Source: an uncultured Sphingomonas sp. (GTDB lineage Bacteria; Pseudomonadota; Alphaproteobacteria; Sphingomonadales; Sphingomonadaceae). Taken from it: a stretch of DNA of 60,666 nucleotides. The notes under the pieces were generated by a model that saw only the letters and a list, made by a program, of their open reading frames with translations, was not told the origin of the DNA and did not search any database. The position numbers and the translations under genes are program-made. Positions within the stretch are counted from its first letter, which is position 1, and the number at the start of each line of letters is the position of its first letter. Positions 46,431 through 60,612 of the stretch are shown in pieces. The stretch lies in assembly GCA_946886645.1 (NCBI GenBank), contig CAMPIY010000001.1, positions 1 through 60,666 on the forward strand, written 5' to 3'.

Positions 46431-47726
46431 ATGCCGACGCTTCCTTTCGCCGTCATTCCCACGCCATTGGGCACGATCGCCACCGGCAACGAGCGGGCGG
46501 AGAAGCCTGCATCGCACCTGGGCGAGTTCAAGGCGCCCGGGATGACGTGGAAATCGAACGGGAACAGCAATCTCTGGATCAGGGGCGATTTCGGGACCGC
46601 GAAGCCAATCGATTTCGTCTCCATGCTGGCTGCGAACGCCTTGCCCGGCACAACCTTCCGGATCAATCTGGCGAGCACTCAGACGGATGTCGACGGCCCC
46701 GGCTTTCGCGCCATCAGCGACAATGGCAACACCACCACGGTCAATCTCAGCGGTCCATATTCGGTGGAAAAGACCAGCGGTGCCGACGGCGCCTATAATG
46801 CCAGCGCCGTCTCGCTCGCCAGCATCAGCGGCGATTTCGTGCTCAGGATCAAGCCGGTCACGACGAACAAGGATATGTTCTTCGGGGTCAACACCGACCC
46901 GCTGACGGACAACACCAACAGCAGCATCGATCGTGCGATCTATTTTCCCGGCAATCCAGCGCTGGGCGCCCGCGTCTGGGAAAACGGCGTGCAGCTGTTT
47001 ACCGGCCCCGCTTATTCCACGTCGCAATATTGGTTCATCCGCCGGATCGGCTCGACGATCACCTATCTCGTCGGGACCTCTACCGATGTCGACGAGGCCA
47101 CCCTGGTCTATACTGGCGCGTCCAGCTCGGCGGCGATGCATTTCGACAGCGCGATTTCGGGGCTCAACGGGAAGGCCGAAGTCTATTTCACCCATGGCGG
47201 TTACGACAGCGGCGAGGTTCCGTTTATCAATCCCTCGATCACGCGCGAGGACGGCCTCTATCACAGCCATATCGAGCTGCCGAAGAAGGTGAGCCAGCGC
47301 TGGTGGCGGATCGACATCAGCGGCCATACCGGCGATTTCGAGGCGGCCATGCTGGTCATGGGCGAGAAGCTGACCCCGGCCAACTGGTACTCTCCTGGCT
47401 GGCAGCGCGGGGTCGAGGATCTCGGCGACATCTCGATCAATCGCTATGGCATCGCTGACGAGCAGGCCGGCCAGATCTGGCGCACCTTGATGATGCGCTT
47501 CGGCTGGATGAGTGAGGCCGATTACGAGACCAAGTTCGGGCCCCTGGTCGAACGGCTGGGAAAGCGCGGCGTCGCCCTGTGGTGCTTCGATCCGACCTCG
47601 AGCATCTACCGCCAGCGCAAGACCTATTACGGCTATCTGCGCAATTCCCCGATCGCGACGCATTCCCGCGATACTCCGGCGGGCATTCGCTACGACAAGG
47701 AATTCCAGATTTTGAGCATGTTCTAG
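46431..47726 (+). CDS. tail protein with inserted lectin-like domain
   Basis: 431 residues. The outer parts (residues 1-90 and 265-431) form one domain type found in phage tails: LWIRGDFGTAKPIDFVSMLA at the start, and PSITREDGLYHSHIELPKKV, FEAAMLVMGEKLTPANWYSP and WCFDPTSSIYRQRKTYYGYL later. Between them lies a separate beta-rich unit of about 165 residues (FVLRIKPVTTNKDMFFGVNT; YWFIRRIGSTITYLVG) resembling SPRY or concanavalin-like folds. The insert may bind a surface sugar and set host range. Confidence 0.75.
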   Translation: MPTLPFAVIPTPLGTIATGNERAEKPASHLGEFKAPGMTWKSNGNSNLWIRGDFGTAKPIDFVSMLAANALPGTTFRINLASTQTDVDGPGFRAISDNGNTTTVNLSGPYSVEKTSGADGAYNASAVSLASISGDFVLRIKPVTTNKDMFFGVNTDPLTDNTNSSIDRAIYFPGNPALGARVWENGVQLFTGPAYSTSQYWFIRRIGSTITYLVGTSTDVDEATLVYTGASSSAAMHFDSAISGLNGKAEVYFTHGGYDSGEVPFINPSITREDGLYHSHIELPKKVSQRWWRIDISGHTGDFEAAMLVMGEKLTPANWYSPGWQRGVEDLGDISINRYGIADEQAGQIWRTLMMRFGWMSEADYETKFGPLVERLGKRGVALWCFDPTSSIYRQRKTYYGYLRNSPIATHSRDTPAGIRYDKEFQILSMF

Positions 47727-47796
47727 CCGACTGCTCTCACGACGGTTCCGGTTCCGGTTCGACTTTCCATCGCCCCTCCACGAAAGGAATTGAGCC

Positions 47797-48540
47797 ATGG
47801 GCGACCTTGGCGTGCTTTTGCTCTTCGCTCTCCCGATCGCGGCCGCCATCGGATTCATCCTGATCCGGAAGCGAGTGCGCCGAGCTGAACGGACGGCCTC
47901 GACGTGCGGCAAGACGCCCAGCCCAGGCGGCACTGTGGATACGCGCCGGATCTATATTGGCCCAGAACTGTGGGACGGTGACAGATCGCCAGGCGTGCCG
48001 ACGCACCCTCAAGCACATCCCGGCGGAGGCTTTGCCTTCGACGTACCGACTGGCGATGGCGAGAAGGTCGATTACGTCACCTTCAACCACGGCTCCCTAG
48101 CCGGCCATGACCGGATCCGCGTCAAGGGTCGGATCGAGATGGCAGAGGGCACCGAGCTGCTGGCGGTTCCAGAAAGGGATCTGGCCGGCCGCTATCCCGC
48201 CCAGATCACAATGTATTTCCAGCGAGAGGGCGACAACTGGAGCGCCAAAGGCGATTACGAGGATGATCGGTGGTATGCGACGTTCGTCCGCCAGCGGCTG
48301 CAGGCGGGGGATTTCGAGATGATCGCGCCGCTCGACGGCCCCTGGACGGCAACCCAGCGATCGAGCAACGATCCGAACGCTGAATTGCCCCTGGTCTATA
48401 ATCCGGCCGGCTTTCGCGATGCGATTACCCATGCGTGCTGCGTCGGCTTCGTCTTTGGTGGCAACGACATCGGATTCGGCCACGGCATGAAGGCGACCGG
48501 GCCCGCGCGGTTCATCGTGACTGAACTGGCGGTCGAATAG
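47797..48540 (+). CDS. membrane-anchored protein at the end of the late block
   Basis: 247 residues. An N-terminal membrane helix (LLLFALPIAAAIGFILIRK) is followed by a basic stretch and a globular part with PAQITMYFQREGDNWSAKGD and GFVFGGNDIGFGHGMKATGP. The last gene of the rightward block; its end overlaps the convergent minus-strand gene by 29 bases. Function unknown; a late-expressed membrane protein or a minor virion protein. Confidence 0.7.
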   Translation: MGDLGVLLLFALPIAAAIGFILIRKRVRRAERTASTCGKTPSPGGTVDTRRIYIGPELWDGDRSPGVPTHPQAHPGGGFAFDVPTGDGEKVDYVTFNHGSLAGHDRIRVKGRIEMAEGTELLAVPERDLAGRYPAQITMYFQREGDNWSAKGDYEDDRWYATFVRQRLQAGDFEMIAPLDGPWTATQRSSNDPNAELPLVYNPAGFRDAITHACCVGFVFGGNDIGFGHGMKATGPARFIVTELAVE

Positions 48541-48742
48541 CCCCTTCGTTTCCATCGATCGGGGGTGATTCCTCCGGCTCGATCTCGGTGAGCGCGTCTA
48601 GATAGATCTGGCCGTTCTCGTCCTCCCGGGCGACGCCGCAATCCACAGCGTCCCGCCGAGCTGCCAGATGGTCCGGAAACCAGTCGCCGACCCGTGCCGG
48701 CGGCTGGCCCGGCGCGCTCACTTTCCATCGATACCGGGTCAC
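48512..48742 (-). CDS. small hypothetical protein, convergent with late genes
   Basis: 76 residues from a GTG that overlaps the upstream stop (GTGA); an ATG at 48763 would add seven residues. The sequence (TRYRWKVSAPGQPPARVGDW, then DAVDCGVAREDENGQIYLDA) reads as a small folded protein. Last gene of the leftward right-arm block. Confidence 0.6.
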   Translation of the reverse strand: MTRYRWKVSAPGQPPARVGDWFPDHLAARRDAVDCGVAREDENGQIYLDALTEIEPEESPPIDGNEGAIRPPVQSR

Positions 48743-48948
48743 CGCGGCAACGCCTGGCCGCAAGAATGACAGCGCGGCACGAATTGGCGGAGCTTTGCCA
48801 CGGGCGCCCGCGGAGGCTCACAAAGCTGTCTCAGGCGCTCGACGGACAGCCCAAGCTGCCCGGCAGCCCTAATCTCGCCATCGATTGCCCGCTGAGCCTG
48901 CTCCGCCGGCGAAAGCTCATGCCATTCGGCAAAATCTGCCGCACTCAT
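48739..48948 (-). CDS. small hypothetical protein with CxxC
   Basis: 69 residues: a helical N-terminal part (ADFAEWHELSPAEQAQRAID) and a C-terminal CHSCGQALPR. Its start overlaps the previous stop by four bases. Unknown function. Confidence 0.62.
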   Translation of the reverse strand: MSAADFAEWHELSPAEQAQRAIDGEIRAAGQLGLSVERLRQLCEPPRAPVAKLRQFVPRCHSCGQALPR

Positions 48949-49097
48949 TGGTCATCGCCTCTAAGCCGAACCCGTCGGCCGCCTAGCCATGGTCGCGCTT
49001 CCTGCTCAGCCCTGATGCGGTAGAGGCGCCGGCCTTCGGTTTCGTCCGGATCCTCCCAGCGGAATCGCGATGGATCATCCTGCCTTGGGCGGCCCAT
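48945..49097 (-). CDS. 50-residue hypothetical protein
   Basis: A short charged protein (MGRPRQDDPSRFRWEDPDET at the start, basic end) whose ATG at 49097 overlaps the stop of the upstream gene by one base and whose stop overlaps the next start. Coupling on both sides supports it; the sequence itself is uninformative. Confidence 0.5.
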   Translation of the reverse strand: MGRPRQDDPSRFRWEDPDETEGRRLYRIRAEQEARPWLGGRRVRLRGDDQ

Positions 49098-49447
49098 CAA
49101 TCCACCCTCTGGATGATGTCCCAGCCGAGCTCGCGGGCGAAGGCCTTGGCCGCGGTTGTCCACTGCCAGATCTGCATGGCTTCGCGGACGGCCTCGCCAT
49201 AGGTCTCTCCGGCTGCCGCTTCGACGACGCCGGCGGCGCGGATCTCTCCTTCCCTTTCCCGCGAAGAACAGCCGACACTCTCGGCTATCCAGTTGCCGGC
49301 CGGCGTCTCCCAGAGCCGAAGCTCAGTCCAGCGATCCTTCGTGCCGGCCCGGTTCTGGGTCGTATATTCGCCGAGCAGCTTTCCATCGAAGTGCAGATCG
49401 GGGCCATGGCTGACTGCCAGGCGGACCTTTTGATATTCATTCGCCAT
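49097..49447 (-). CDS. hypothetical protein
   Basis: 116 residues starting at an ATG with GGAGGG upstream. It contains KDRWTELRLWETPAGNWIAE and a final WDIIQRVD, the look of a small DNA-associated or inhibitor-type phage protein. It overlaps the upstream gene by 11 bases. Family not recognised. Confidence 0.65.
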   Translation of the reverse strand: MANEYQKVRLAVSHGPDLHFDGKLLGEYTTQNRAGTKDRWTELRLWETPAGNWIAESVGCSSREREGEIRAAGVVEAAAGETYGEAVREAMQIWQWTTAAKAFARELGWDIIQRVD

Positions 49448-49766
49448 CAGGGACACCCTCCGCGTCGTGCGGTCGGGGCAAGGCGTCGACGGGCATCAAA
49501 ATACGTCCTTGCGGGTCGACGGGAACGCGCGTGGCCCACCAACCGTGCGCAGCCTGCTCGTCGCTTTGGCTATAGACGGCGCCCATCCACGCCCCTTCCG
49601 AGTCTGGGCTTACCCATCGCCGTCGAAGCGGCTCGATGTGAAACTCATAACACGGAGGCCCGCCACCGATGATCGTGGTGCGCACCAGTCGTACAAAGGA
49701 CCGGCCGTTGCGAGGAGCCGTTGCCATTGGTTGCCACACCGGGTTTGTCGGTTGATGTTCACTCAT
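49437..49766 (-). CDS. hypothetical protein (DUF551-like pattern)
   Basis: 109 residues. The start NPVWQPMATAPRNGRSFVRL resembles the W-x-P-(I/M)-x-x-A-P-x-x-G motif of small phage proteins such as those in DUF551. The rest has several tryptophans (WVSPDSEGAWMGAVY). The leader before it carries the ATTGAAAGGA ribosome binding site common to this block. Confidence 0.62.
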   Translation of the reverse strand: MSEHQPTNPVWQPMATAPRNGRSFVRLVRTTIIGGGPPCYEFHIEPLRRRWVSPDSEGAWMGAVYSQSDEQAAHGWWATRVPVDPQGRILMPVDALPRPHDAEGVPDGE

Positions 49767-49791
49767 TCGTTTCCCTTCCTTTCAATGCCAA

Positions 49792-50661
49792 TCAGCGGCC
49801 CTTGTCCGCCCTCATTCTCACGAACCGGGGCGACCTTAGCGCGCCCGCCTCGGTGATTTCCATCGCCTCGATTTCCGCAATGGCCCCGCGCATCTCGCCG
49901 CGATCGCGCCAGAATGCCATCCGCTGAGCGTCGCTGAACCCGGCCCGCACCCGGATTTCGCGGCCGCCGCGATCGAGCACCATCACACCCAGCAGATAGG
50001 GCTTGGCCCGATCGGGCTCGAGGCGGAGGATCGGCAAATCCACCGTCAATGCCCGTTTGATCCGCTGCCAGAGCCCGCACCGGTTCCGCTGATAGGTGGC
50101 CGTCGCCTGCTTCACCACGACGCCCTCGCCGCCCGCGGCGATATATTCCCGTGCCCGGGCTTCGATGTCGGCGACGTCGGTCATGAAGGCCCAGGGCATC
50201 AGGCGGACGGCGCCATCCTCCTTGCCCTTGACCAGCCGATCCAGCTTGTCGCGGCGGAGCTCCAGGCTGTCGCAGGCATCTTCGCCCCGCCAGACCCGCA
50301 TAGGCATGGCGTCGAAGAGTTGGAGCGTGCCGGCGCTGCCATTTCCACCGAAGGCCCTGAAATGGGCCAGCGTCCGGCCGAAAGAGCCGTCGACCTGATA
50401 TTCGCCGTCGAAGAACATGGGCATGCAGGCTTCGTGCTCGAGCTGGCGAAGGCGTGCCGCGATATGATCGGCGCCGGCGAGCGGAGTCCCTTCGCGGGTG
50501 ACCAGCTCTCCATCGATCCACAGCGCCCGGAAGCCGTCGACCTTGGGCTCGACAATGGCGCCGCCGATCGGAACGGCGCCTTTCCAGTTGTCGACCAGCT
50601 GGCATAGCTCCCGGCCGCCCGCGCGGCGCGCCAGAGCGGGATGAGGGGCGAGTGCGGTCAT
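49792..50661 (-). CDS. ATP-dependent DNA ligase
   Basis: 289 residues. The nucleotidyltransferase motifs are present: motif I EPKVDGF with Lys40 as the adenylated residue, motif III in FFDGEYQVDG (Glu87), motif IV in AAGGEGVVVK (Glu179, Lys184), and motif V in WQRIK (Lys202). A small C-terminal OB-fold-like part follows. The enzyme would seal nicks in phage DNA. Its start overlaps the clamp stop by four bases, so ligase and clamp are coupled. Confidence 0.9.
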   Translation of the reverse strand: MTALAPHPALARRAGGRELCQLVDNWKGAVPIGGAIVEPKVDGFRALWIDGELVTREGTPLAGADHIAARLRQLEHEACMPMFFDGEYQVDGSFGRTLAHFRAFGGNGSAGTLQLFDAMPMRVWRGEDACDSLELRRDKLDRLVKGKEDGAVRLMPWAFMTDVADIEARAREYIAAGGEGVVVKQATATYQRNRCGLWQRIKRALTVDLPILRLEPDRAKPYLLGVMVLDRGGREIRVRAGFSDAQRMAFWRDRGEMRGAIAEIEAMEITEAGALRSPRFVRMRADKGR

Positions 50662-53054
50662 TGGCTCGCTCCCTCAGCCTGGACGGACTGAGCGTCGCCC
50701 TGGTACGTCAAGGCGAGCGCCGGCGTCCGATAGAGCTGCAGCGCCTGTTCGGCCCGGATCGCGCGGCCGGCGAGCCTTTCCATCTCTTCCCCCATTCTCG
50801 CATTGGCGCGCTCGAGCTGGGCGATGCGTTCGGCATCGCTTCCCGCCCGCCTTTCCGCCGAGTCCCGTTCCTGGTGCAATCTGGCGACCAGCGCCGGCGC
50901 GGGGCCGTTGAGATGCGTCGGCTTCGCCATTTCGACCCGCATGGCGTCGCGCTCCGCATCGGCCTGGCGGACATATTCGCCGGCCGCCTCGAGCGCGGCG
51001 CGATCGATCTGGCGCTGGCGGCGCATCGTCAGATAGCGCCGGACCAGCCGTTCCCGTGCCGGCGATCGAGGGGTGCGATTCGAAACCGGCGTTTCGACCG
51101 TCGGAGCTCCTTCGGAACGGCTGATTTCTGCGGTTTCCGACACCGATTCGGCGGTGATTCCGCTCCCCACCGAAACGGGCACCATTTCCATCGCTTGGGG
51201 CGCCCGCTCAGCCTCGAGCGCTTCGACCCGCTGGACCAGCCCGGCAATGACAGCGCCCAGCGGCCCGGCGAACGTGATCGCCTCGGCCTTTTCCTCGGCG
51301 GCCTGTCGCTCTTCAATGACCCGGCGCCGTTCCGCCTCACCGGCGAAGTCGACACGGATCACGCGCGCCGGCGGCAACGCCTCGGTAAGCATGGCGAGCG
51401 CCTGGATGGCCGCGCCGACATCACAGTCAGCCGGGCGGGCGCGAAGCTGAGCCATGAAGCCGGCCGGATCGGCGCAATAGGCGTCGAGCTGCTCCCGGTC
51501 CGTCATTCGCCGGCTTCGCTTCCCATCGATGGTCCATCGCGGCCCGGGAATATGCATGCCGCGGACAATTTCGCCATGAAGGAACTGGAGCGCCGGAATC
51601 TCGACGCGGCCGGCCTGGTCGACGTCGCCGCAAAGCGTCCGGACCGCTTCCTTGCTCAACTCGAGCGCGCCGGCCTTGTTGGTGCGGAGATGGTGGAACT
51701 CCGCCTTTCCATCATCGCCGACGATTTCCACCGCGACCAACGATTGATGAGTGCGAGGCATCGGCACCGAATAGGCGCCATCCTCATATTCCCAATGGCC
51801 TTCCGGCTGGACCGTCCGCACCCCATCGGGGGCGCCGATGCGGTTCCAATCGATCACTTCGACGGCCGGCGGCTGGATCCACTCCGCCTTTCCGAACGTC
51901 ATGCCATGGACCAGGCCATCGGCGGTAAGCCGAAGCGTGACGTCCGCGAACTTGGGAAGCCCGCGGCGCTCGGCAAGGTCGAGCAGATATCCGGAAGCAT
52001 GCCGGCTGGAATGCTCATATTCGCTGAAGCCGTAGCCCTTGGGCGCGGCGTCCGGACGGAGCAGCATGCTCATGCCCAGCCATTCCGGATAGTCGCGGGC
52101 GCTGAGCAGCGCCGCCTTTTCGCCCGTTTCCACCGAAAGGGCTGATCCGACGCCTTTGGCAAGAGCGGCGATCTGGCCGGCATTGAGGCGCGGCTCCAGC
52201 TCGACCAGCGCCACCGACTGCAGCTCGACGTCACCGAACGGGCTCGCCTCGCCGCCTGGCATGACTGATTGCCAATCGATAAAGCTCCCATCGATCAGCT
52301 TGGCGACGACGCGCCAGCCGGGACCGTCGACCGCGATGCGGCTTCCGTCCGTTTCCATCGAAAGGGTGGCGGGCTCGGCGCCCTTCAGGAGCTGGCAGAT
52401 GCTCGCAACCGTCTTTCGGTGAATGATGATATCCGGCAAGGCCTCGCTTCCGGCCGGCGCTTCCCTTTCGATCCTGGCCAGTTGGTGGCCATCGGTTGCG
52501 ATCCAGAACAGCCGGCCCGCCCGCGCCTGAACGGCGACGCCCTGGAGATAGTAGCGAGCCTCTTCCTTCGACATGGCCGGCGCCACGGCCGCCAGATCGC
52601 GCGCCAGCTGATCGCCTGGCAGATCGATGCGAATAGAGGCCTCGCCGGGCCCGTGGAGCGAAGGAAAGATCTCCAGGGCCATCAGCGGCAAGCAATAGCG
52701 ATTCCGCCCGCTGGCGACGTTCAGCCGGCCGGCCTCGCTTTCCACCGAAAGGCTCAACAGGGACCTAGCCTTTTTGACGATATCGCGAAGCGCCGCGGCG
52801 TCGACCGCAAAGCTGCCTGGCACCGTGCCGGCGCATGGAACGGAAACGTCCGCCATAATGTCCAGATCGGTCGCCGTCATGATCATGGCCCCATCGCCGA
52901 TGGTGATGGCCACAGCGCTGAGGATCGGGAACGTATTGCGGCGCTCGACGATACGGTTGAGGAAGGCGAGCGCGTCGACCAGCGGCTTGCGCTCGACGTC
53001 GCAACAGGGATTGGCCAGCTCGGCGCCGGCGGTCTCGATGGTCTCATTTTTCAT
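50658..53054 (-). CDS. DnaN-like sliding clamp with long C-terminal extension
   Basis: 798 residues. Residues about 17-335 follow the bacterial beta clamp: FLNRIVERRNTFPILSAVAI, GSFAVDAAALRDIVKKARSL, RYYLQGVAVQARAGRLFWIA, ATDGHQLARIEREAP, KLIDGSFIDWQSVMPG, and an end LGMSMLLRPD like the usual MPMR end. The remaining 460 residues have no recognised domain but include WTIDGKRSRRMTD and a coiled coil near 690-770. Normal clamps have about 370 residues. The leader before it is a hammerhead ribozyme, and a five-codon upstream frame overlaps the start. Confidence 0.85.
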   Translation of the reverse strand: MKNETIETAGAELANPCCDVERKPLVDALAFLNRIVERRNTFPILSAVAITIGDGAMIMTATDLDIMADVSVPCAGTVPGSFAVDAAALRDIVKKARSLLSLSVESEAGRLNVASGRNRYCLPLMALEIFPSLHGPGEASIRIDLPGDQLARDLAAVAPAMSKEEARYYLQGVAVQARAGRLFWIATDGHQLARIEREAPAGSEALPDIIIHRKTVASICQLLKGAEPATLSMETDGSRIAVDGPGWRVVAKLIDGSFIDWQSVMPGGEASPFGDVELQSVALVELEPRLNAGQIAALAKGVGSALSVETGEKAALLSARDYPEWLGMSMLLRPDAAPKGYGFSEYEHSSRHASGYLLDLAERRGLPKFADVTLRLTADGLVHGMTFGKAEWIQPPAVEVIDWNRIGAPDGVRTVQPEGHWEYEDGAYSVPMPRTHQSLVAVEIVGDDGKAEFHHLRTNKAGALELSKEAVRTLCGDVDQAGRVEIPALQFLHGEIVRGMHIPGPRWTIDGKRSRRMTDREQLDAYCADPAGFMAQLRARPADCDVGAAIQALAMLTEALPPARVIRVDFAGEAERRRVIEERQAAEEKAEAITFAGPLGAVIAGLVQRVEALEAERAPQAMEMVPVSVGSGITAESVSETAEISRSEGAPTVETPVSNRTPRSPARERLVRRYLTMRRQRQIDRAALEAAGEYVRQADAERDAMRVEMAKPTHLNGPAPALVARLHQERDSAERRAGSDAERIAQLERANARMGEEMERLAGRAIRAEQALQLYRTPALALTYQGDAQSVQAEGASQ

Positions 53055-53072
53055 CGGTCATTGTCCTTTCAA

Positions 53073-53156
53073 TGGGCTGGCTCATCAGCGCTCCCATGCC
53101 CAAGGGAGCGGACGCGCGGCCGATATCGGAAATCCGACATCGGCCGGCGTTTCGCC
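53073..53156 (-). ncRNA. type II hammerhead ribozyme HH-3 (before the clamp gene)
   Basis: Read on the coding strand: stem II GGC (53156-53154), GAAA (53153-53150), long stem III including CGGCCGAU/AUCGGCCG (53149-53113), UC with cleavage after C53111, stem I CGCUCCC/GGGAGCG (53110-53104, 53095-53089) with loop UUGGGCAU, CUGAUGA (53088-53082), stem II GCC (53081-53079). Loop bases UGGGC can pair with GCCCA at 53077-53073. All conserved core bases are in place. It starts at the TGA stop of the upstream gene and ends before the GAAAGGA site of the clamp gene. Confidence 0.92.
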
Positions 53157-53888
53157 TCAGTTTCCGTCGGTCATGGCCTTTTCTCGAGCCTTGGCGTGGC
53201 GCTCGGCGAGCACGCGCCGCGCGACGTCCTGCCAGTGGCGATCGCCGTAGCCTTCCCATTGGCCGTTAGTCTGGATGCGGATGTCGTCGCCGAAGCGCTC
53301 GACCAGCTCGCCATCATAGAAAACCGACGCCTCGCCCTGGGTTGTGCTGAACCGGTGGCGCTCGACCGTGACCAGGCGCGGATTGAATGGGGGCGGCTGA
53401 TCGAGATAGTCGGCGCGGAGCTGATTGGCGCGGATTGCGGCGGTCAGTCGCTCGATGACGTCCGCTTCATTGCTGACGAGATAGAAGCCGAACGAATAGG
53501 TGAAGAAATTGCCCGAAAAGGCGATTCCCTCGACCAGCCCGCCGATTGGCGTCCCGTCGACCGCCTCGGCCTCATAGGCGAAATTCCCGTAATTCTCCCA
53601 TGTCCGGTCCAGCGGATGGGTGGCGAGCATTTCCACCAACGCCTCGATGCCGCCGCCCCTTCGGCCGATATGGCTGATCAAGGTGGCCTTGGCGCCGGTT
53701 TCGGCCCGGTATCTGTTCGCCCGTTCACGGAGCGAAAGCGCGAAATTGTCGGTCAGCTGCATGCCCTGATCCGGCATCAGCTCCTTGGCCAGGATCCGCG
53801 CCTGATCGAGCGTGAAAATCGTCCGCAACCGTTCCTGTGGAACGTTGTCGGCGCATTCGTCGGTTTCGCTGTAGCTCAGAACGTTCAT
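53157..53888 (-). CDS. hypothetical protein between two ribozymes
   Basis: 243 residues from an ATG with GAAGGGAAAA upstream. The sequence is that of a globular alpha/beta protein (SETDECADNVPQERLRTIFT at the start, then GGLVEGIAFSGNFFTYSFGF and GEASVFYDGELVERFGDDIR). No family recognised. It stands between HH-2 and HH-3, directly upstream of the clamp gene. Confidence 0.75.
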   Translation of the reverse strand: MNVLSYSETDECADNVPQERLRTIFTLDQARILAKELMPDQGMQLTDNFALSLRERANRYRAETGAKATLISHIGRRGGGIEALVEMLATHPLDRTWENYGNFAYEAEAVDGTPIGGLVEGIAFSGNFFTYSFGFYLVSNEADVIERLTAAIRANQLRADYLDQPPPFNPRLVTVERHRFSTTQGEASVFYDGELVERFGDDIRIQTNGQWEGYGDRHWQDVARRVLAERHAKAREKAMTDGN

Positions 53889-53906
53889 TGCTCTTTTCCC
53901 TTCAAT

Positions 53907-53983
53907 GCCCTGCCTCATCAGGAAAGGGGCGGGCGCTCCCTTCCGACGCGTCGACCAGCTCGAGCCGGCCGGCGCGTTTCGGC
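53907..53983 (-). ncRNA. type II hammerhead ribozyme HH-2
   Basis: Stem II GCC (53983-53981), GAAA (53980-53977), stem III with CGCG/CGCG and CGGCCGGC/GCUGGUCG-type pairs, UC with cleavage after C53945, stem I GGAAGGG/CCCUUUC (53944-53938, 53928-53922, one G-U), CUGAUGA (53921-53915), stem II GGC (53914-53912). Loop I GCCC (53934-53931) can pair with GGGC at 53910-53907. The first base of stem II is the last base of the upstream TAG stop codon. Confidence 0.9.
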
Positions 53984-54297
53984 TATTCTGTCTCTTCGCT
54001 CTTAGCGCGCTTTGCGGCCTCAATTTCGGCGCGCGCCTGATCAAGCCAGCGCCGGCCCTTGCGTTGCCAATCGGCGCCATGGCGCCGAAGCGCCCACGAT
54101 TGGCTAGAGCCGCCGGTGTCGACCATTTGCGCGGCTTCATAGCCGCTCCGCGCGTTGAATGCGGCTGTTTCGGCATCGTCGGCGAGCTGCGCGGCATTGG
54201 CGAGTCCGAGCGTTTCGGCTTCGCGCTTGGCGGCCGCGGCGATGGCGCGGAGCGTATCAGCGCGCATTAGGCCTGGCGAAAGGCGCCGGCGCGTCAT
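53983..54297 (-). CDS. small basic helical protein
   Basis: 104 residues from an ATG that overlaps the upstream stop by four bases; another ATG ten codons later is possible. Helical throughout, with TLRAIAAAAKREAETLGLAN, then LRRHGADWQRKGRRWLDQAR. The stop codon abuts HH-2. Function unknown. Confidence 0.68.
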   Translation of the reverse strand: MTRRRLSPGLMRADTLRAIAAAAKREAETLGLANAAQLADDAETAAFNARSGYEAAQMVDTGGSSQSWALRRHGADWQRKGRRWLDQARAEIEAAKRAKSEETE

Positions 54298-54581
54298 TCT
54301 GCCGACTCCGCGGCGCTTTCCATCGCCTGGGGCTTCGTTTCCATCGCCGGGGCTTCCGGCCCGTCCCATGCCTCAAAGGCTTTGAGCACGGCCGGGCCGT
54401 CGGCGATGGCATCGCCGCCGTTGACGAAGGCCGGAACGCCATCGACCGCGCGAGTCTCGGCTTTGGGGGCGCCTTCCGTATCATAGTCGACGATAACGAA
54501 TCGGACCGGAACGCCGGCGGTATAGACGCCGGCAACGACTCCGCCGTCTATCTCAATCATGATCATAACGGGCTCAGCCAT
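54294..54581 (-). CDS. small acidic protein, unknown
   Basis: 95 residues. The N-terminal half is beta-like (MIMIEIDGGVVAGVYTAGVP, then VRFVIVDYDTEG), the pattern of a small phage protein that displays a hydrophobic sheet; the C-terminal half is an Ala/Glu/Pro-rich tail. It overlaps the next gene by four bases. No function assigned. Confidence 0.68.
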   Translation of the reverse strand: MAEPVMIMIEIDGGVVAGVYTAGVPVRFVIVDYDTEGAPKAETRAVDGVPAFVNGGDAIADGPAVLKAFEAWDGPEAPAMETKPQAMESAAESAE

Positions 54582-54584
54582 GGC

Positions 54585-54800
54585 TCAGGCTCCTACGTCG
54601 AGCCGGACGCGGCGCGGCCGGTTGATGAAAGCGGAAGCGATGACGCGTCGAGCCTTGGCGCAATCTTCGGCGCTCCAAGCCGTGGCGCGCTCGCCGAAGC
54701 GCGCGGCGAGGATCAGGCCGGCCGCGTCGGCACGGCTGCACCCCTTGCGCCTCAGCGCCTCGACCAGGTGCGGGAAGGTGGCGGCGATAATATCCAGCAT
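54585..54800 (-). CDS. 71-residue helical protein
   Basis: From an ATG with AACGAAGGGAAT upstream, directly behind HH-1. The sequence MLDIIAATFPHLVEALRRKG, then SRADAAGLILAARFGERATA, suggests two helices able to pair. Not recognised. The longer frame upstream would run through the ribozyme and is not used. Confidence 0.68.
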   Translation of the reverse strand: MLDIIAATFPHLVEALRRKGCSRADAAGLILAARFGERATAWSAEDCAKARRVIASAFINRPRRVRLDVGA

Positions 54801-54817
54801 TGTCTTATTCCCTTCGT

Positions 54818-54896
54818 TGGCCAGCTCATCAGGGTAGGGCGGCCAGCTCCTACCGACGCAACCGCCCGCCATGGTGACGGGCGGCGCGTTTCGCCG
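54818..54896 (-). ncRNA. type II hammerhead ribozyme HH-1
   Basis: Stem II CGGC (54896-54893), GAAA (54892-54889), stem III CGC...GCG with CCGCCCG/CGGGCGG inside, UC with cleavage after C54855, stem I GGUAGG/CCUACC (54854-54849, 54838-54833), CUGAUGA (54832-54826), stem II GCUG (54825-54822). Loop I UGGC (54845-54842) can pair with GCCA (54821-54818). It begins one base after the TAA stop of the upstream gene and ends at the ribosome binding site of the next. Confidence 0.92.
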
Positions 54897-55136
54897 TTAT
54901 CGGGCGCCCCGGCCCCAGCAGATGCCTTTGACGAACGCCTCGGCCTCGGCACGGCTGAGAAAATCCTCAATGAGATCGGGGCCAGCGCCGCCGACGCCTT
55001 CCCGGACGTCAAAGACCGCCCATTGGGTAGCTTCGGCTTCGTCGCAGTGCTCGTACCATGTCGAGCCGTCGGCGCCTTCCGGCGTGCCATAGAACGTGTC
55101 GCGCTGGGGCTCGATGGCATAGTCGCTCGGCTGCAT
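54897..55136 (-). CDS. small hypothetical protein
   Basis: 79 residues, acidic and aromatic (GTPEGADGSTWYEHCDEAEA, then WAVFDVREGVGGAGPDLIED). It may be a mimic-type or inhibitor-type phage protein by composition, but nothing specific is visible. Its TAA stop directly precedes HH-1. Confidence 0.68.
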   Translation of the reverse strand: MQPSDYAIEPQRDTFYGTPEGADGSTWYEHCDEAEATQWAVFDVREGVGGAGPDLIEDFLSRAEAEAFVKGICWGRGAR

Positions 55137-55137
55137 G

Positions 55138-55449
55138 TCAATTACTCCCCTGAGTAGAGATGACGAAAAGGCGCAAAGCGCTGAGCGTCTCAGCCTTCCC
55201 GACGCGCTCTGCTCTATTCGTTGCGGTTTCGCTCAGGAGCTGGCCATCATTGCGATGACGCCGGGCGCCAATCCAATGGCGCTCGAATGCCATTAGCGCT
55301 GCATAGTCGGGATAAGCGCCACTGACCGGCTTAGGATAGGCGCCCGGCCCGAACGTGGCATAGGCAAAGGCAGCGCGCAGGCTCGAGGCAGCCCAATGAC
55401 CGGCTTGGATCAGATCGGCGGCACGCTCGGCGATAGTGGCAGGCGCCAT
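55138..55449 (-). CDS. hypothetical protein
   Basis: 103 residues from an ATG one base after the stop of the upstream gene. Sequence APATIAERAADLIQAGHWAA, then MAFERHWIGARRHRNDGQLL; helical with a basic middle. No family recognised. Confidence 0.65.
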   Translation of the reverse strand: MAPATIAERAADLIQAGHWAASSLRAAFAYATFGPGAYPKPVSGAYPDYAALMAFERHWIGARRHRNDGQLLSETATNRAERVGKAETLSALRLFVISTQGSN

Positions 55450-55450
55450 C

Positions 55451-55729
55451 TCAGCGACTCCCTGCATTGGCGATGAGGCCAGCGGCGACACCGAAGGAGC
55501 CGTAGGACAGCAGCCCGGCGCCGATCAGGAACAAGAGCGCGACACCATGGGCGAGGCCAAGCGGATCGCTGTGAGTAGGAATGTCCGAAGCGGCGATTAC
55601 CGCAACCGCGGCGATGGCGAGGCCGATCACGGCGAGCAGGGCGCCCCAACATACCGCCTCACAGTTGCGACGGTATTGGCTGCGGGAGACATAGCGGCGA
55701 GGCCGGCGGGTTCTGGTCTTATGCATCAT
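55451..55729 (-). CDS. membrane protein with two spans
   Basis: 92 residues. A basic N-terminus (HKTRTRRPRRYVSRSQYRRN) is followed by two hydrophobic segments (GALLAVIGLAIAAVAVIAAS and GVALLFLIGAGLLSYGSFGV). The ATG at 55729 has GAAAGGA eight bases upstream; a start at 55777 in the same frame is possible. First gene behind the promoter candidate at 55826-55853. Confidence 0.68.
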   Translation of the reverse strand: MMHKTRTRRPRRYVSRSQYRRNCEAVCWGALLAVIGLAIAAVAVIAASDIPTHSDPLGLAHGVALLFLIGAGLLSYGSFGVAAGLIANAGSR

Positions 55730-55958
55730 GGTCCAATCCTTTCGTTGCCGGCCATCTGAGCTGGCCGGCGGGCTCATTCCTTTCGATGCCTGGCGGGGCG
55801 ACTCGTCGCTCGCCGGGCAAGGCTGAAAATAGAGACGCAAAGGTTGATTGCAAGTAAATAATGCAATGTTTGCGGGTCCTTACTGGCGATTGACTGCGGG
55901 TGAAGCGGTGGACAACCGCAAAAATAAAACGCGTCTGCCTAGTTTTACTTTCGGATTG
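55730..55958 (-). promoter_or_regulatory. A+T-rich control region of the right-arm operon
   Basis: This 229-base gap is the longest without a gene. On the minus strand TTGCAA (55853-55848) and TATTTT (55831-55826) are 16 bases apart, a usable promoter. TTGCA/TGCAA inverted halves at 55864-55848 overlap its -35 and could be an operator. Further down, GCCGGCCA/TGGCCGGC forms an 8-bp hairpin at 55769-55747 just before the ribosome binding site. I see no gene in it on either strand. Confidence 0.55.
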
Positions 55959-56126
55959 TTACCTCTTCGACTTTTGACTTGTGTAATGCTGGTTCAGCGC
56001 CTGTTTTCTTGCGGCTGTCGTGGACGGCTCCCAGCCTCGGAAATCTCCGAAGAGTGCGAGCTGCTGGCCCTCGTCTGGGAACATGCAATCGAGCGCTGTG
56101 CAGACCCAGCACCGACAGAGGTTCAC
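55959..56126 (-). CDS. 55-residue protein with cysteine motif
   Basis: A GTG at 56126 overlaps the stop of the upstream gene (GTGA). The product starts NLCRCWVCTALDCMFPDEGQ and ends with a basic tail. The CRCWVC...C cluster could bind zinc. The coupling and the normal sequence support a real gene, though its start is not an ATG. Confidence 0.5.
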   Translation of the reverse strand: MNLCRCWVCTALDCMFPDEGQQLALFGDFRGWEPSTTAARKQALNQHYTSQKSKR

Positions 56127-56329
56127 CAACTCGCCTTCCGCACGGAATAGCGGCTCACGATGTGTCGCACGCCATCCTCGAATTCGATCTGGATGCTGTT
56201 CATCTTGCCCCGAGCGACCACTCGGCACCGCTGCCCATGGCGATCGGGAAGCCGAACGCGCAGGCGCCAGTAATGGTCGAACGTGGGCCCGTTCCCATCG
56301 CGGAACGTCACGACCGGCTTGCCTTCCAT
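56123..56329 (-). CDS. small beta-rich hypothetical protein
   Basis: 68 residues: GPTFDHYWRLRVRLPDRHGQ, then MNSIQIEFEDGVRHIVSRYS. The alternating pattern and basic strands suggest an OB-like or SH3-like barrel that could bind nucleic acid. It overlaps the upstream gene by 22 bases. Confidence 0.65.
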   Translation of the reverse strand: MEGKPVVTFRDGNGPTFDHYWRLRVRLPDRHGQRCRVVARGKMNSIQIEFEDGVRHIVSRYSVRKASW

Positions 56330-56553
56330 TCCTCAAATACGATCGCATGGACCTGGCACAGATCCTTGCCGGGAGCCGGCGAGACAGTGCAGCGGTCGCA
56401 GATCGGCGCGTCGCAAGTTCCGCTCCGCTTGGTCGGCACCTTCCAGTCGCAAAGCAGCCGGGCGGGACGGCCGCACTTGCATTTCGGTCGCCGTCGCGAG
56501 CCACAGACGATGGCTGTTGCTCCGCCCGGGAGGGTGACGCGCTCGCACGTCAT
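56308..56553 (-). CDS. cysteine-rich zinc-binding protein
   Basis: 81 residues with nine cysteines: CKCGRPARLLCDW, then CDAPICDRCTVSPAPGKDLC and H. The spacing matches two zinc-binding knuckles of a small cross-brace type. Its ATG overlaps the upstream stop by four bases. Role unknown; small zinc proteins are frequent among phage early genes. Confidence 0.7.
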   Translation of the reverse strand: MTCERVTLPGGATAIVCGSRRRPKCKCGRPARLLCDWKVPTKRSGTCDAPICDRCTVSPAPGKDLCQVHAIVFEEWKASRS

Positions 56554-56930
56554 CCGAACATCCTCTCGATCTCGCCGACGTCGATGTGCCCCTCGTCGAA
56601 CACCGCGACGATCCGTTTCCAGTTCTCCTCGAGCAGGCGCTCGGCCTGAACCGCCTTAAGGCGAGCCGGTGATCCCGGCGGCAGATGCCAATAGCAGCGG
56701 GTCGGGCAGATCTTGTGCCAGCGGCGATAGAGGAACGTGCGGCGGCGTTTGAGACGCTTCGGCACCTGGCGCCAGTGAGGGCCGCAGATCCATGTCGGAT
56801 GAGGCAGGCACGTTTCGACCCCGATCGTGCCATCCGGCCAGGGCTCAATCCGCGTCGTTCCTCGCCGGCACCCTTCGACCATGCACGCGACGCGCGGAAA
56901 GCCGGATTTCTGTCGTTGACGGACAATCAC
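56550..56930 (-). CDS. cysteine- and tryptophan-rich hypothetical protein
   Basis: 126 residues from a GTG that overlaps the thyX stop. It has CMVEGCRRG, then CLPHPTWICGPHWRQVPKRL, a likely zinc site, followed by a basic helix and KRIVAVFDEGHIDVGEIERM at the end. It may bind DNA. Family not recognised. Confidence 0.68.
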   Translation of the reverse strand: MIVRQRQKSGFPRVACMVEGCRRGTTRIEPWPDGTIGVETCLPHPTWICGPHWRQVPKRLKRRRTFLYRRWHKICPTRCYWHLPPGSPARLKAVQAERLLEENWKRIVAVFDEGHIDVGEIERMFG

Positions 56931-57631
56931 ACGTCCCTGCCGCGTTCCCATGCCTCGATGCACGCCGGAGCGACCGCCCGGGCCAATTCTTTCATCGCCT
57001 CGGCATAGACCCGGATCTCGTACTGCGCGTGATCGTGATCGCGCAGCGTCAGAAACTTGAGCAGGTTGAGCAGATCAACCGTCGCGAACATGTGGCTATA
57101 GGTGCTGACCGGCAGGACCGATCGCGCCAGCTCGCGGGGCCAACCGCCCCCGATCAGGCGCCTGTACATGTTGAACGCGTCCTCACAGGTGCCGCGTAGG
57201 AGATCGACCTCGACGCTGCGTCGCTCGAGCAAAAGCTCTTCGTGCAAGACTGCGCCGGTCCCGATGACCCGGGCCTGCTTATTGTCCTTCGACTGCTCGC
57301 CGATCAGCGCAGGATCCGGAACATAGAACTCCTCGGGCAGCTCGCGGTAGCGGGCGCTCAGCTCGTTGAAGGACCAGGTCCGATGGCGGTGCCACTGGCG
57401 AAAGACAAAGATCGGCGCCTTGACCTCAAACGTCATCGTCACAGCCTCGAACGGCGACGTGTGAGCATTCCGCCAGAGATAGCCGATCAGTCGCTTGTCC
57501 GACCCCTCGTTGTCGCCAGCGCGCCAAGCCGCATCATACGAGACGCGAGCTGCACGAACGACGCTGAGGTCGCTACCCATGGAATCGACCAGACGCACAA
57601 AGCCGTGGTCGAGCACGTCGACCTTATCCAT
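56927..57631 (-). CDS. thyX: flavin-dependent thymidylate synthase
   Basis: 234 residues, the normal ThyX size. The ThyX signature RHRxxSxNExSxRY is complete: QWHRHRTWSFNELSARY (residues 79-95). Further motifs are FRQWH before it, ARSVLPVSTYSHMFATVDLL and LRDHDHAQYEIRVYA. It makes dTMP from dUMP with FAD and methylene-folate, raising thymidine for phage synthesis. The ATG at 57631 overlaps the DUF3310 gene end. Confidence 0.95.
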   Translation of the reverse strand: MDKVDVLDHGFVRLVDSMGSDLSVVRAARVSYDAAWRAGDNEGSDKRLIGYLWRNAHTSPFEAVTMTFEVKAPIFVFRQWHRHRTWSFNELSARYRELPEEFYVPDPALIGEQSKDNKQARVIGTGAVLHEELLLERRSVEVDLLRGTCEDAFNMYRRLIGGGWPRELARSVLPVSTYSHMFATVDLLNLLKFLTLRDHDHAQYEIRVYAEAMKELARAVAPACIEAWERGRDV

Positions 57632-57842
57632 CCTGTTGCCTCCTGTTTTCGATTTCTCGGTCGAGATACCAACGGGCTTTCTCGAGATCCTGTACGGCTG
57701 CACCTTTGTGCTCAGCGCGGGCGATATATTTGACGGCATTGCCGAGGCTGAAGCCGAGACCCCAAGCCTCGATCACCTTGATCGCCTCATATGGATTGTC
57801 CGCGCCGCCGTAGTGCGCGGGATGGTTGACCGCCTCGGCCAT
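57624..57842 (-). CDS. DUF3310 family protein
   Basis: 72 residues with the family motif NHPAHYGGADNPYEAIKVIE, then GFSLGNAVKYIARAEHKGAA and DLEKARWYLDREI. DUF3310 proteins are common in phages, often next to nucleotide metabolism genes, as here beside thyX. Their role is not established. The ATG at 57842 follows AAAGGAG; a longer frame upstream is not used. Confidence 0.88.
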   Translation of the reverse strand: MAEAVNHPAHYGGADNPYEAIKVIEAWGLGFSLGNAVKYIARAEHKGAAVQDLEKARWYLDREIENRRQQDG

Positions 57843-57843
57843 C

Positions 57844-57999
57844 TCAAGTTCTCCTTTCGGTGAGATCAGGGCTGCAACATTCCCGGCCGAGCGACCGAAT
57901 GGGTGCATGGCACCTCGGGCAATAGGGGTCGCGAACCGGACCCGTGTAGAGATGGGGCCTGGACGGCTGGGTCGGCAGCTTGGACGTCCGCTCGGTCAC
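57844..57999 (-). CDS. 51-residue zinc-knuckle protein
   Basis: A GTG at 57999 overlaps the methyltransferase stop (GTGA), and the stop lies one base before the DUF3310 start. The product has YCPRCHAPIRSLGRECCSPD, a plausible single zinc site, behind a proline-rich N-terminus. The perfect fit between two genes supports it. Confidence 0.6.
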   Translation of the reverse strand: MTERTSKLPTQPSRPHLYTGPVRDPYCPRCHAPIRSLGRECCSPDLTERRT

Positions 58000-60491
58000 G
58001 CCAGCCCCGCGTCCATGTCATAGGCCGGTTGATGGGCGTCGACTGTCAAGGCCAGCGCCCCGGGCTTCACCCAGATTTCGCGGGTCGAGAGGGTGAAGGT
58101 CTCGCCCATCTCGGCCAGGAGGATCGTCTCGCCGATCGTCTCGGCGATTCCTCGAGCCGACTTCGACGGCACGGCGTTGCCGATCCATTCCCGCTTCGTC
58201 GCATCGCTCGAGCTCTCGAGGTCGAAGGCGTACCGTGCCCGCCAAGTCTGTCGGGCCTCGTCGAAAAAGAACACCTCTTCCGGATCGACGATCGACTGCA
58301 GCGCAGCCAGCTCGAGCGTGCTGAATGGGCGATGCCAGGTCTCATCGGTACTGATGATGCGGCAGACCAGCCGGTCCTCTGGCTTCGGCAGCGCGATCAG
58401 CGGCTCCTGGATCTCAGCCGGCCGAGGATCCGCGACATTCCCGGGCCCGTTGTCGTGGCCGAGGGTGGCCGACACCGTACCGGCCGAGTTGTCCCAGCCG
58501 ACGACGCCATAGTGCCCGCATGTCTGGTAATGCTCGCGGCGGACGTCGGCGACACAGGGCTGCCCACCGGTTACGCTGTGCCCGCCGCTGGTGATCGCTC
58601 CGGCCGCGTCCTGGTCGGGAGTGACCCTGAGCACGTTCTCATGCCTATTGCCCCAGCTGCAGCGGACGTCGGCGACGGCGAAAGCGCCGTTATCACGGCC
58701 GCCGATGACTGATCGAGCCGCCGCGCCAATCCACATCTCGACGCGGTACTTGCCGTGAAGGGCGCCGGCGTCAGGGCCGCCTCGAGGATCGGCGAGGGCG
58801 AATGCCCCGTCGCCGGTCGTGCTGGCACCAATCACCGCGCGTGTCGCGCCGGCCCATGGCGTGATCTTGTATTTCGTCGTCTCGTAATCCCGCTCGCCCA
58901 TGCGAGGATCGGCGACACAGGCGCCACCGGCTGGTCCACCCGGGCCAGCAACAGCATTGGCCTCGCGGTCGATCGGCACGATGCGGAAGGTATTGTTGAA
59001 GCGCGGCCGGCCCATCATCCGGACGTCGGCGATCGCATAGGGCCCGGTACCGACCGAACAATCGCCCTTCACCGCCGCCGCGGCTTTGCCGGCCCATGGC
59101 CTGACGCCCAGCATGACGCTCTTCGGATGGCCGTCGACGCGAGGATCCGCGATCGAGTTCGCTCCGCATGTCGGCTTCGGGCTGGACCCGAGCACGCCGG
59201 CAAATTCGCTCCAGTCCAGGACGCCGAGGACGTAGCGATGTGTCGACGGACCATAATCGGGCCGTGGATCGGCGATGCTGTAGGCGCCATTGGTGGCGCC
59301 GCCGCGCGATGAGATGGCCCCGACCGACATGCTCCAGGTGTTCACGCCGAGATATTCGTGGCCGAGGCTCAGCGATCGATCGGGGCGAGGATCGGCGATC
59401 GCAAAGCGGCCGTTCGTCGGATAGCTCTCGCCCTGGATCGTGCCGATATGGCCGTCCCAGGTGCCGACGCCGAGGGTGGAAGAGCGGTCACGGCCATCAT
59501 AACGGACATCGGCCACGGAAAACCGGCCCTGATAAGGCGAGCGCTGCCCGGTCAGCAGCGGTGCGCTGTCCTCCCATCGGCAGACGCCAAGGCCGTTGTC
59601 GCGCAGGCCTTCCGGCAGGATCCCGTAATCACGAAGCACCCCGTCGACCACGGCGAGCTCGTTCAGTGCCCGCCAATCGCGGCCGGCCGGCACCAGGGCG
59701 AGGCGAAGCCAAGTTTTCCATTGAAGGGCAGGGACCCGGTGCATCGCGCCGGCGATAGGATCACCCGGCAGCGGCAGCTTGCCGATGACCTCCCCAACGC
59801 CGCGGAGCCGGTGCTTTTCCGGGGTATAGATGAAGTTCGGGATGATCTCGCGCTGGCGGGCGATCAGCAAAAAGCGCTTCCGGCTTTGGGCCAGGCCGCC
59901 CAGCTCGCCGCAGTCGTGGACGGTCTCGGCGACATTGTAGCCGTAGGAGCGGAGGATCGCGCAGATCTGGTCGAGAAGGTAGCGCCCGCGGTTGGCGATG
60001 CGCGGGACATTCTCGAACAGGATGATCGGCACCGGATCATCCTTATAGGCTTCGCAGAGCAGCCAGACGCCGCGAAGGGTCAGGGCGTTGAGCGCCTGGT
60101 ACTTGTCGGTGAGCGACTGTTTCGAGCTGAGCAGGCCGGAGAAGCCTTTGCAGGGCGCCGAGAGGAAGGCGACGTCGACCCTGGGCCCGAACGTGGCCAT
60201 GATGTCGGCCGGCCCTGCCTCGCGCCATCCGGCCGGCGGCTCCTTGCCGTGGAAGGCGAGATATTGCTCCCTCGAGAAGAGGTCCATGACGGTGCCCTCG
60301 GCACCGGTCAGCCGCTTGAAGTTCCGGATCGCGCCGGCGTCGACATCGATGCCGCCCCGACATTCGAATTTGGCGACGACATTGCCGACGCGGGGGTTCG
60401 CCTGGTTGAAGCCCCGAGCTCCGGCGCCGACGCCGCAGAAGAGATGGGCGTGGCTGATGACCCGCTCGAGGACGCGGTTGTGGAAGTTCAT
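57996..60491 (-). CDS. cytosine-C5 DNA methyltransferase with ten tandem repeats
   Basis: 831 residues, about twice the family norm. C5 motifs: I HLFCGVGAGARGF (16-28), IV SAPCKGFSG with nucleophile Cys114, VI LFENVPR (158-164), VIII QSRKRFLL (202-209), IX RPFSTLELAALQSIVDP (721-737) and X GNAVPSKSARGIAETI (771-786). Between VIII and IX, residues about 301-690 are ten repeats of some 39 residues ending in (V/I)AD(P/V)R, with a W-x-x-x-x-G-(T/A)-(I/V) part before. This is the target-recognition position. It would methylate phage DNA against host restriction. It is next to attR. Confidence 0.92.
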   Translation of the reverse strand: MNFHNRVLERVISHAHLFCGVGAGARGFNQANPRVGNVVAKFECRGGIDVDAGAIRNFKRLTGAEGTVMDLFSREQYLAFHGKEPPAGWREAGPADIMATFGPRVDVAFLSAPCKGFSGLLSSKQSLTDKYQALNALTLRGVWLLCEAYKDDPVPIILFENVPRIANRGRYLLDQICAILRSYGYNVAETVHDCGELGGLAQSRKRFLLIARQREIIPNFIYTPEKHRLRGVGEVIGKLPLPGDPIAGAMHRVPALQWKTWLRLALVPAGRDWRALNELAVVDGVLRDYGILPEGLRDNGLGVCRWEDSAPLLTGQRSPYQGRFSVADVRYDGRDRSSTLGVGTWDGHIGTIQGESYPTNGRFAIADPRPDRSLSLGHEYLGVNTWSMSVGAISSRGGATNGAYSIADPRPDYGPSTHRYVLGVLDWSEFAGVLGSSPKPTCGANSIADPRVDGHPKSVMLGVRPWAGKAAAAVKGDCSVGTGPYAIADVRMMGRPRFNNTFRIVPIDREANAVAGPGGPAGGACVADPRMGERDYETTKYKITPWAGATRAVIGASTTGDGAFALADPRGGPDAGALHGKYRVEMWIGAAARSVIGGRDNGAFAVADVRCSWGNRHENVLRVTPDQDAAGAITSGGHSVTGGQPCVADVRREHYQTCGHYGVVGWDNSAGTVSATLGHDNGPGNVADPRPAEIQEPLIALPKPEDRLVCRIISTDETWHRPFSTLELAALQSIVDPEEVFFFDEARQTWRARYAFDLESSSDATKREWIGNAVPSKSARGIAETIGETILLAEMGETFTLSTREIWVKPGALALTVDAHQPAYDMDAGLA
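58422..59591 (-). repeat. ten-unit tandem repeat inside the methyltransferase gene
   Basis: About 117-base units, imperfect at the DNA level, each encoding the consensus Y-x-V-x-x-W-x-x-x-x-G-x-I-x-G...N-G-x-F-A-(I/V)-A-D-P-R. The last unit runs into motif IX, and it resembles the segment that precedes motif IX in ordinary C5 enzymes, so the array looks like repeated duplication of that segment. Confidence 0.85.
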
Positions 60492-60612
60492 GCCGCGGCG
60501 CCTGCGGTAAAAGTGCGGTAAAATCGGCGCCGATTCCCGATCCGTTCACGGCTCGTCCCGCGACATCGGAACGAAAAAATGGCGGATTTCTGCGGGTTCG
60601 CGGAATAGTCTC
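60492..60612. other. right-arm end between methyltransferase gene and attR
   Basis: No gene is visible in these 121 bases. They contain the arm-type repeats (60503-60523) and an A-rich run at about 60573-60580. As part of attP in the free phage, the stretch is probably recombination DNA and leader of the methyltransferase gene. Confidence 0.6.
60503..60523 (+). repeat. candidate arm-type integrase sites, right (P) arm
   Basis: Two exact copies of TGCGGTAAAA start at 60503 and 60514, 11 bp apart, 90 bp from the att core. The left arm has the same doublet with the same spacing and orientation at 112-132. Confidence 0.65.

Follow-up and report, generated by a model that had tools for sequence, protein, structure and literature searches.

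Three type II hammerhead ribozyme motifs in a phage gene run of an uncultured Sphingomonas and their predicted role in dividing a shared message

Three hammerheads in one leftward gene run

The stretch of DNA analysed here, termed the window, comprises 60,666 nucleotides (nt) of an uncultured Sphingomonas sp. (GenBank assembly GCA_946886645.1, contig CAMPIY010000001.1, positions 1 to 60,666 of the forward strand). Its minus strand harbours three complete hammerhead ribozyme motifs of type II, HHR1 to HHR3, each in a different gap of a single gene run that reads leftward and together spanning 1.83 kb on a single strand among phage replication genes. In the direction of reading, this run comprises G1 (54897..55136, 79 amino acids, aa), whose UAA stop codon at 54899-54897 abuts HHR1 (54816..54896); G2 (54585..54800, 71 aa), the first gene 3' of HHR1; G3 (54294..54581, 95 aa); G4 (53983..54297, 104 aa), whose UAG stop codon at 53985-53983 overlaps HHR2 (53904..53984); and G5 (53157..53888, 243 aa), the sole gene between HHR2 and HHR3, whose UGA stop codon at 53159-53157 abuts HHR3 (53071..53157). 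HHR3 lies directly 5' of the gene for a 798-aa sliding-clamp protein (50658..53054), which is the first gene 3' of this element and is followed by a gene for an ATP-dependent DNA ligase (49792..50661), the start of which overlaps the end of the clamp gene; all these genes and elements are on the minus strand. The clamp protein carries the beta sliding-clamp domains PF00712 and PF02767, i.e. only the first two beta-clamp domains are recognised by Pfam, and has a long extra C-terminal part. G5 belongs to phrog_23189, a family of unknown function, and G1, G3 and G4 have no match in Pfam or PHROG. The gaps free of ribozymes are short or absent, with 3 nt between G2 and G3 and overlaps between G3 and G4 (the start of G4 being the ATG that overlaps the G3 stop codon, a choice made by us) and between the clamp and ligase genes, and the stop codons preceding HHR1, HHR2 and HHR3 end 4, 2 and 3 nt, respectively, before the GAAA of the ribozyme.

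The motif was searched for on both strands by a strict scan demanding, in this order, GAAA, a stem III of at least 4 pairs, the bases U-H, a stem I of at least 4 pairs, CUGANGA and a stem II of at least 3 pairs. Exactly three matches were obtained in the window, whereas Markov surrogates (100 of first and 100 of second order) gave 0.0 per window on average. In each of the three the order GAAA - stem III - UH - stem I - CUGANGA - stem II is exact and stem II is open (the type II permutation), the conserved core bases (GAAA, CUGAUGA and UC) are complete, and an H occupies the cleavage site. In HHR1, GAAA starts at 54892, the predicted cut falls after C54855 with stem I running from 54854, and CUGAUGA occupies 54832-54826; the corresponding positions of GAAA, cut and CUGAUGA are 53980, C53945 and 53921-53915 in HHR2, and 53153, C53111 and 53088-53082 in HHR3. 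These cleavage positions had been proposed by a prior interpretation of the letters without database searches (hereafter the sequence-only reading) and proved correct when the coordinates were rechecked; likewise confirmed was its placing of each element just after a stop codon and ahead of the following ribosome binding site, around the clamp gene. Scans for the type I and type III permutations yielded no element in the window.

A covariance model, R1, was built from 72 other phage hammerheads, with the window and its clamp relatives excluded; these rows were drawn from the 198 distinct elements of the survey described below, which a length and per-locus filter had reduced to 136 candidates. 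R1 scores the three elements at 49.6, 47.3 and 46.5 bits (E 9.6e-12 to 7e-11), while the next-best of the 26 matches listed for the window attains only 11.7 bits (E 0.49), and no further good hammerhead copy lies above this value. A chance motif is ruled out by the Markov surrogates together with R1 E-values of about 1e-11, and the recognition of three type II hammerheads with intact cores by the sequence-only reading thus holds. When searched at a relaxed threshold, the Rfam family RF02276 (Hammerhead_II) also returned the three elements as its top three rows, with 34.5, 32.5 and 29.9 bits (E 0.0031, 0.0099 and 0.048). In the 72-row training alignment of R1, 369 two-sided cells were counted, a number that leans towards structure because the rows were picked by a scan requiring minimal stems. 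The three helices are supported by covariation, as judged from the R1 matches and from the two-sided stem I changes described below for HHR3, L081 and L082.

All three elements can form a pseudoknot between loop I and the tail, with 5, 4 and 5 Watson-Crick pairs in HHR1 (54845-54841 with 54822-54818), HHR2 (53934-53931 with 53910-53907) and HHR3 (53102-53098 with 53077-53073), respectively. Taken singly, the P values from shuffling are weak (0.05, 0.14 and 0.06), and the joint P for all three pseudoknots having at least 4 pairs in shuffled loops and tails is 0.008. Such a pseudoknot is common but not universal in type II hammerheads: in the wider phage set, by a stricter count, 75 of the 198 elements listed reach at least 4 pairs, compared with about 21 expected from shuffles, and Perreault et al. 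(2011; PMC3088659) predict it for a majority of type II elements.

Recurrence in relatives and arrays in other phages

Queries with the clamp protein or with G5 retrieved 83 viral loci, 80 of which are clamp loci. In the two having the strongest clamp match (L081 and L082), a hammerhead with an intact core ends just before the clamp start, as HHR3 does, and the genes upstream of it are unlike G5 and unlike one another according to BLASTP. Among HHR3 and these two elements, 5 of the 7 stem I pairs are changed on both sides, with all 21 cells paired; L082 passes the RF02276 cut-off of 37 with 38.9 bits, and L081 (34.6) and L101 (34.2) score below it. A linkage of the hammerheads to G5 instead of the clamp was also considered and rejected, as hammerhead matches do not exceed 17.6 bits in any of the six loci that encode a G5 homologue but lack a match to the clamp (L161-L163 and L305-L307). 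When R1 was applied to 80 seemingly chromosomal loci retrieved from genome_contigs by the clamp query, 0/80 gave a match at E 1 or better, a result counted in favour of the interpretation given below.

One sphingomonad genome (L315) contains four hammerheads in a gene row that is partly syntenic with the window. One hammerhead precedes a homologue of G2 (45% over 38 aa, E 6e-9), which, like G2 itself, is located directly 3' of the element, and one precedes a gene in the clamp position, followed by a ligase gene (33%) and then by a homologue of g49097 (46%). The 351-aa product of the gene in the clamp position matches residues 464-686 of the clamp protein only (27% over 228 aa, E 2e-4), and this similarity therefore lies outside the clamp domains; these E-values were computed for a set of 18 window proteins. 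Two other sphingomonad loci (L316 and L318) carry one hammerhead each, about 0.5 and 0.6 kb before a match to the window ligase. Two positions of the array recur in distant relatives, namely that before the clamp (L081 and L082) and that before the G2 homologue (L315).

A pattern scan of viral contigs provided at least 120 stretches, which are not a random sample, with a structural match in 93 and none in 27. After removal of identical copies, the survey set comprised at least 198 distinct elements from 92 sources, including the window, L081, L082 and L101; not every locus in it is independent (L186 and L221, e.g., are parts of one contig), and of each core the scan keeps the best-scoring reading, which favours a longer helix II. 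Survey counts given here and below refer to the matches listed. Among 88 pattern-scan loci, 44 have at least two hammerheads and 20 at least three, with a maximum of ten (L180), and an array of three is therefore ordinary for phage hammerheads; strands are mixed in 0/44 of the loci with at least two. The ten type II elements of L180:3913-6747 are packed into 2.8 kb between small genes, and the order there is plain: stop codon, ribozyme, purine-rich site (often GAGGT) and ATG. Eight or nine hammerheads each were found in L234, L171 and L196. Like the window, these four loci have several type II elements on one strand, but their arrays are longer than its three. On the downstream side, a ribosome binding site with a start codon is situated at 10-45 nt for 146 of 190 phage hammerheads (8 of the 198 were excluded as being near a contig end), compared with 369 of 3628 random positions. 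Two variant hammerheads (L315:8307-8392 and L127:1739-1819) have one extra U between CUGANGA and helix II and keep both the preceding stop codon and the following ribosome binding site.

The array arrangement itself is already known: the sequence-only reading had held it to be undescribed, but clusters of hammerheads in prophages, including an active triple array, were published in 2011. According to Perreault et al. (PMC3088659), multiple hammerheads flank single genes or short blocks in prophages, a triple array flanking ardA of Agrobacterium tumefaciens underwent cleavage in vitro and in E. coli, further clusters are found in Azorhizobium caulinodans and Clostridium scindens, and a processing of long phage transcripts was proposed. 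The window resembles these clusters in that several close hammerheads flank genes or short blocks in a phage, and type II elements with a loop I-tail pseudoknot are described there, too; it differs from them in the genes concerned, i.e. a sliding clamp, a DNA ligase and small unknown proteins. Two other papers report hammerheads close together flanking small open reading frames, with a tie to phages and a role still open (PMC6155905), and an enrichment of the hammerhead and twister ribozymes of bacteria in each other's vicinity and close to Mu-like phage genes (PMC10085705). Theta ribozymes of gut phages are, according to Kienbeck et al. (2024; PMC10879173), likewise small, self-cleaving and phage-borne elements with a proposed role in RNA processing, but they are similar to the hepatitis delta virus (HDV) ribozyme (HDV-like) and their cleavage site is often next to tRNAs, whereas the elements of the window lie between protein genes. 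New here are the recurrence of the two positions and the stop-codon geometry outlined below, neither of which was met in the accessible text of Perreault et al. (2011; PMC3088659).

Predicted cleavage of the message and the stop-codon geometry

In our judgement, it is likely that the three hammerheads cut a phage message, itself probably shared by the genes of the run, in the course of its synthesis and thereby split it into gene blocks. In favour of this are the intact cores and stems, the R1 matches, the pseudoknots, the counterparts in L081, L082 and L315, the downstream ribosome binding sites and single-strand arrays of the survey, and the published activity of other hammerheads. Hammerhead cleavage leaves 2',3'-cyclic phosphate and 5'-hydroxyl ends. 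We infer that the gene run is co-transcribed and that the ribozymes are active; self-cleavage after C54855, C53945 and C53111 as the message is made would then release four pieces, comprising the upstream genes down to G1, the block G2-G3-G4 (910 nt), G5 alone (834 nt), and the clamp and ligase genes onward. Every 5' product would terminate in its stem III hairpin, shortly past a stop codon, and carry a 2',3'-cyclic phosphate. The 3' products would each start with the first base of a stem I hairpin, bearing a 5'-hydroxyl there, and would reach the next start codon after 54, 56 and 56 nt for HHR1, HHR2 and HHR3, respectively. As a likely effect, stability and rate of translation could be set separately for each gene block of a single transcript. 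Of 18 consensus hammerheads tested in vitro, 14 were active (PMC3088659). A scan of positions 47000-60666 for promoters found no sigma-70-like site and neither supports nor excludes other internal promoter types.

The 3' product predicted for HHR3 has its ribosome binding site in the loop of a small hairpin (CAUUG-AAAGGA-CAAUG), and a five-codon frame (MTDEK, window positions 53061-53044) starts just after this site and overlaps the clamp start.

A number of observations weigh against such a processing of the message. An Rfam search of the window at the gathering threshold gave 0 matches, so that the three significant minus-strand matches to Hammerhead_II expected by the sequence-only reading were obtained at the relaxed threshold (E 0.003-0.048) and not at this one. 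The elements share with RF02276 the core, the permutation, the two-pair helix II and the tail, but have longer stem III hairpins, and with 29.9-34.5 bits all three remain under its gathering score of 37, which is a library cut-off and not a structural feature. In the minimum-energy folds of HHR1, HHR2 and HHR3, stems I and III form, the native helix II forms in none, and the 5' strand of helix II pairs with the tail that the pseudoknot needs; this kind of folding cannot hold pseudoknots, which would occupy the tail. The predicted pairing could be an inactive alternative shape. Moreover, 4 of the 18 consensus-like hammerheads mentioned above were inactive in vitro (PMC3088659). With respect to relatives, a hammerhead match above 18 bits was found in only 5/83 of the viral clamp and G5 loci (L081, L082, L101, L102 and, as a variant, L127), and in L101, L102 and L127 the element is about 0.9 kb or more before the clamp and not directly before it. 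The remaining 75 of the 80 clamp loci have no match above 18 bits; among them are L083 and L084, where the clamp match covers residues 20-269 only, yet with 42% identity. As to a loss of the core in relatives that keep the genes, which the sequence-only reading had regarded as evidence against the elements, the picture is mixed: an intact core directly before the clamp is retained in L081 and L082 despite the altered stem I, and a good match is lacking in these 75. The six G5 loci described above, in which nothing exceeds 17.6 bits, point in the same direction, as does the family Sphingomonadaceae, to which Hephaestia mangrovi belongs and in which 4/397 genomes have a hammerhead match, with just 12 candidates scored per genome; one of these matches (L317) is a single hammerhead with no window gene nearby.

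Regarding the upstream side of the elements, 164 of the 198 phage hammerheads have a frame of at least 30 codons that ends within the 0-12 nt preceding GAAA, as opposed to 129 of 983 other GAAAC sites on the same strands, and a frame of at least 60 codons stops in this zone in 149 of the 198 and only inside the ribozyme in 12. UAG accounts for 66 of those 164 stops, but for 185 of 950 among the remaining stops of these loci (p 3e-8). In 80 of the 198 elements the stop codon lies at one of two testable offsets, which place its last base at pair 3 or pair 4 of helix II; here UAG pairs in 44/44 cases and UAA or UGA in 9/36 (p 6e-14), and with one element taken per locus the figures are 25/25 and 7/26 (p 2e-8, median of 200 draws). 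This geometry suggests that a terminating ribosome could hold cleavage back. A pairing of the stop codon with helix II was not found in a full-text literature search, which misses most subscription papers, and the words "stop codon" were not found in those parts of the text of PMC3088659 and PMC10085705 that are available.

Tentatively, the ribozymes might therefore be gated by ribosomes, in that a ribosome terminating at a stop codon within or next to helix II would mask this helix together with the GAAA strand and prevent cleavage, and only untranslated or ribosome-free messages would be cut. All four of the preceding survey results, i.e. the excess of stops before GAAA, the enrichment of UAG, its consistent pairing in helix II and the ending of long frames in the stop zone, speak for this possibility. 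However, the compactness of phage genomes alone could place a stop codon beside a ribozyme, the use of UAG may reflect that helix II wants a G there, and at offset -4 UAG is absent among the stops, with a pairing of the stop base possible in 1 of 28 elements. In addition, the scan favours a longer helix II by retaining the best-scoring reading of each core, the footprint of the ribosome over the core is deduced from general footprint sizes, and within the window the stop base is paired in HHR2 only, where the G of the G4 stop codon (UAG) can pair in helix II, the stop codon before HHR3 being unpaired. Somewhat more doubtful still is the extension of this idea to phage type II hammerheads in general as translation-gated switches, in which the stop codon would often be a structural part of helix II, with UAG covarying with its partner, and cleavage would report on upstream translation, cutting the operon of an array only where ribosomes are absent.

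The patchy spread of the elements (4/397 Sphingomonadaceae genomes and 5/83 viral clamp and G5 loci) would also suit relics or neutral passengers that spread between phages without a role in expression, but this is unlikely, as HHR3, L081 and L082 have intact cores with stem changes on both sides, positions recur in L315, and in 44/44 survey loci with at least two hammerheads all are oriented on a single strand. Very improbable is an excision in which the paired ribozymes release G5 (834 nt) for circularisation of the message by an RtcB-type ligase, for although G5 is flanked by two adjacent type II hammerheads and the 5'-hydroxyl and 2',3'-cyclic phosphate ends are of the hammerhead type, Perreault et al. 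report that neither spliced nor circular products could be detected (PMC3088659), and no RNA ligase family was found among the window proteins searched, which represent part of the window genes.

The role of hammerheads in prokaryotes and phages has been an open question since 2011, as stated in PMC3088659 and PMC6155905. The window is a compact example of a predicted division of the message, in which one member recurs ahead of a gene for DNA replication. From the survey emerges a simple rule, with the stop codon placed at helix II and the ribosome binding site immediately behind the tail, which makes a coupling to translation testable with reporters.

The phage carrying the array

The phage is marked by window proteins such as ThyX (56927-57739), an 831-aa C5 methyltransferase (57996-60491), helicases, a portal protein, a tail or lysis type protein and a gpA-type terminase. 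The window ends (1-54 and 60613-60666) form a 54-bp direct repeat that, as is seen at prophage attachment sites, resembles the 3' portion of a tRNA gene; an anticodon CAC can be read in it by eye, and ARAGORN lists no tRNA there. A 45-base part of this repeat is matched with 3 mismatches in 3/20 alphaproteobacterial genomes (Hephaestia mangrovi and two Sphingomonas), and no match was found in two Novosphingobium and one Sandarakinorhabdus.

When viral contigs were searched with the clamp protein or G5 as a single sequence, no relatives were found, and a near-identity DNA search of named phages gave two weak matches only, both within the methyltransferase gene. The clamp protein is recorded on 221 contigs, the longest of which has 76,463 bases, and this phage therefore recurs in public data. 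The C5 methyltransferase has ten occurrences of ADPR or ADVR, as counted by eye, spaced through its middle, and a relative with 54% identity is encoded in L307.

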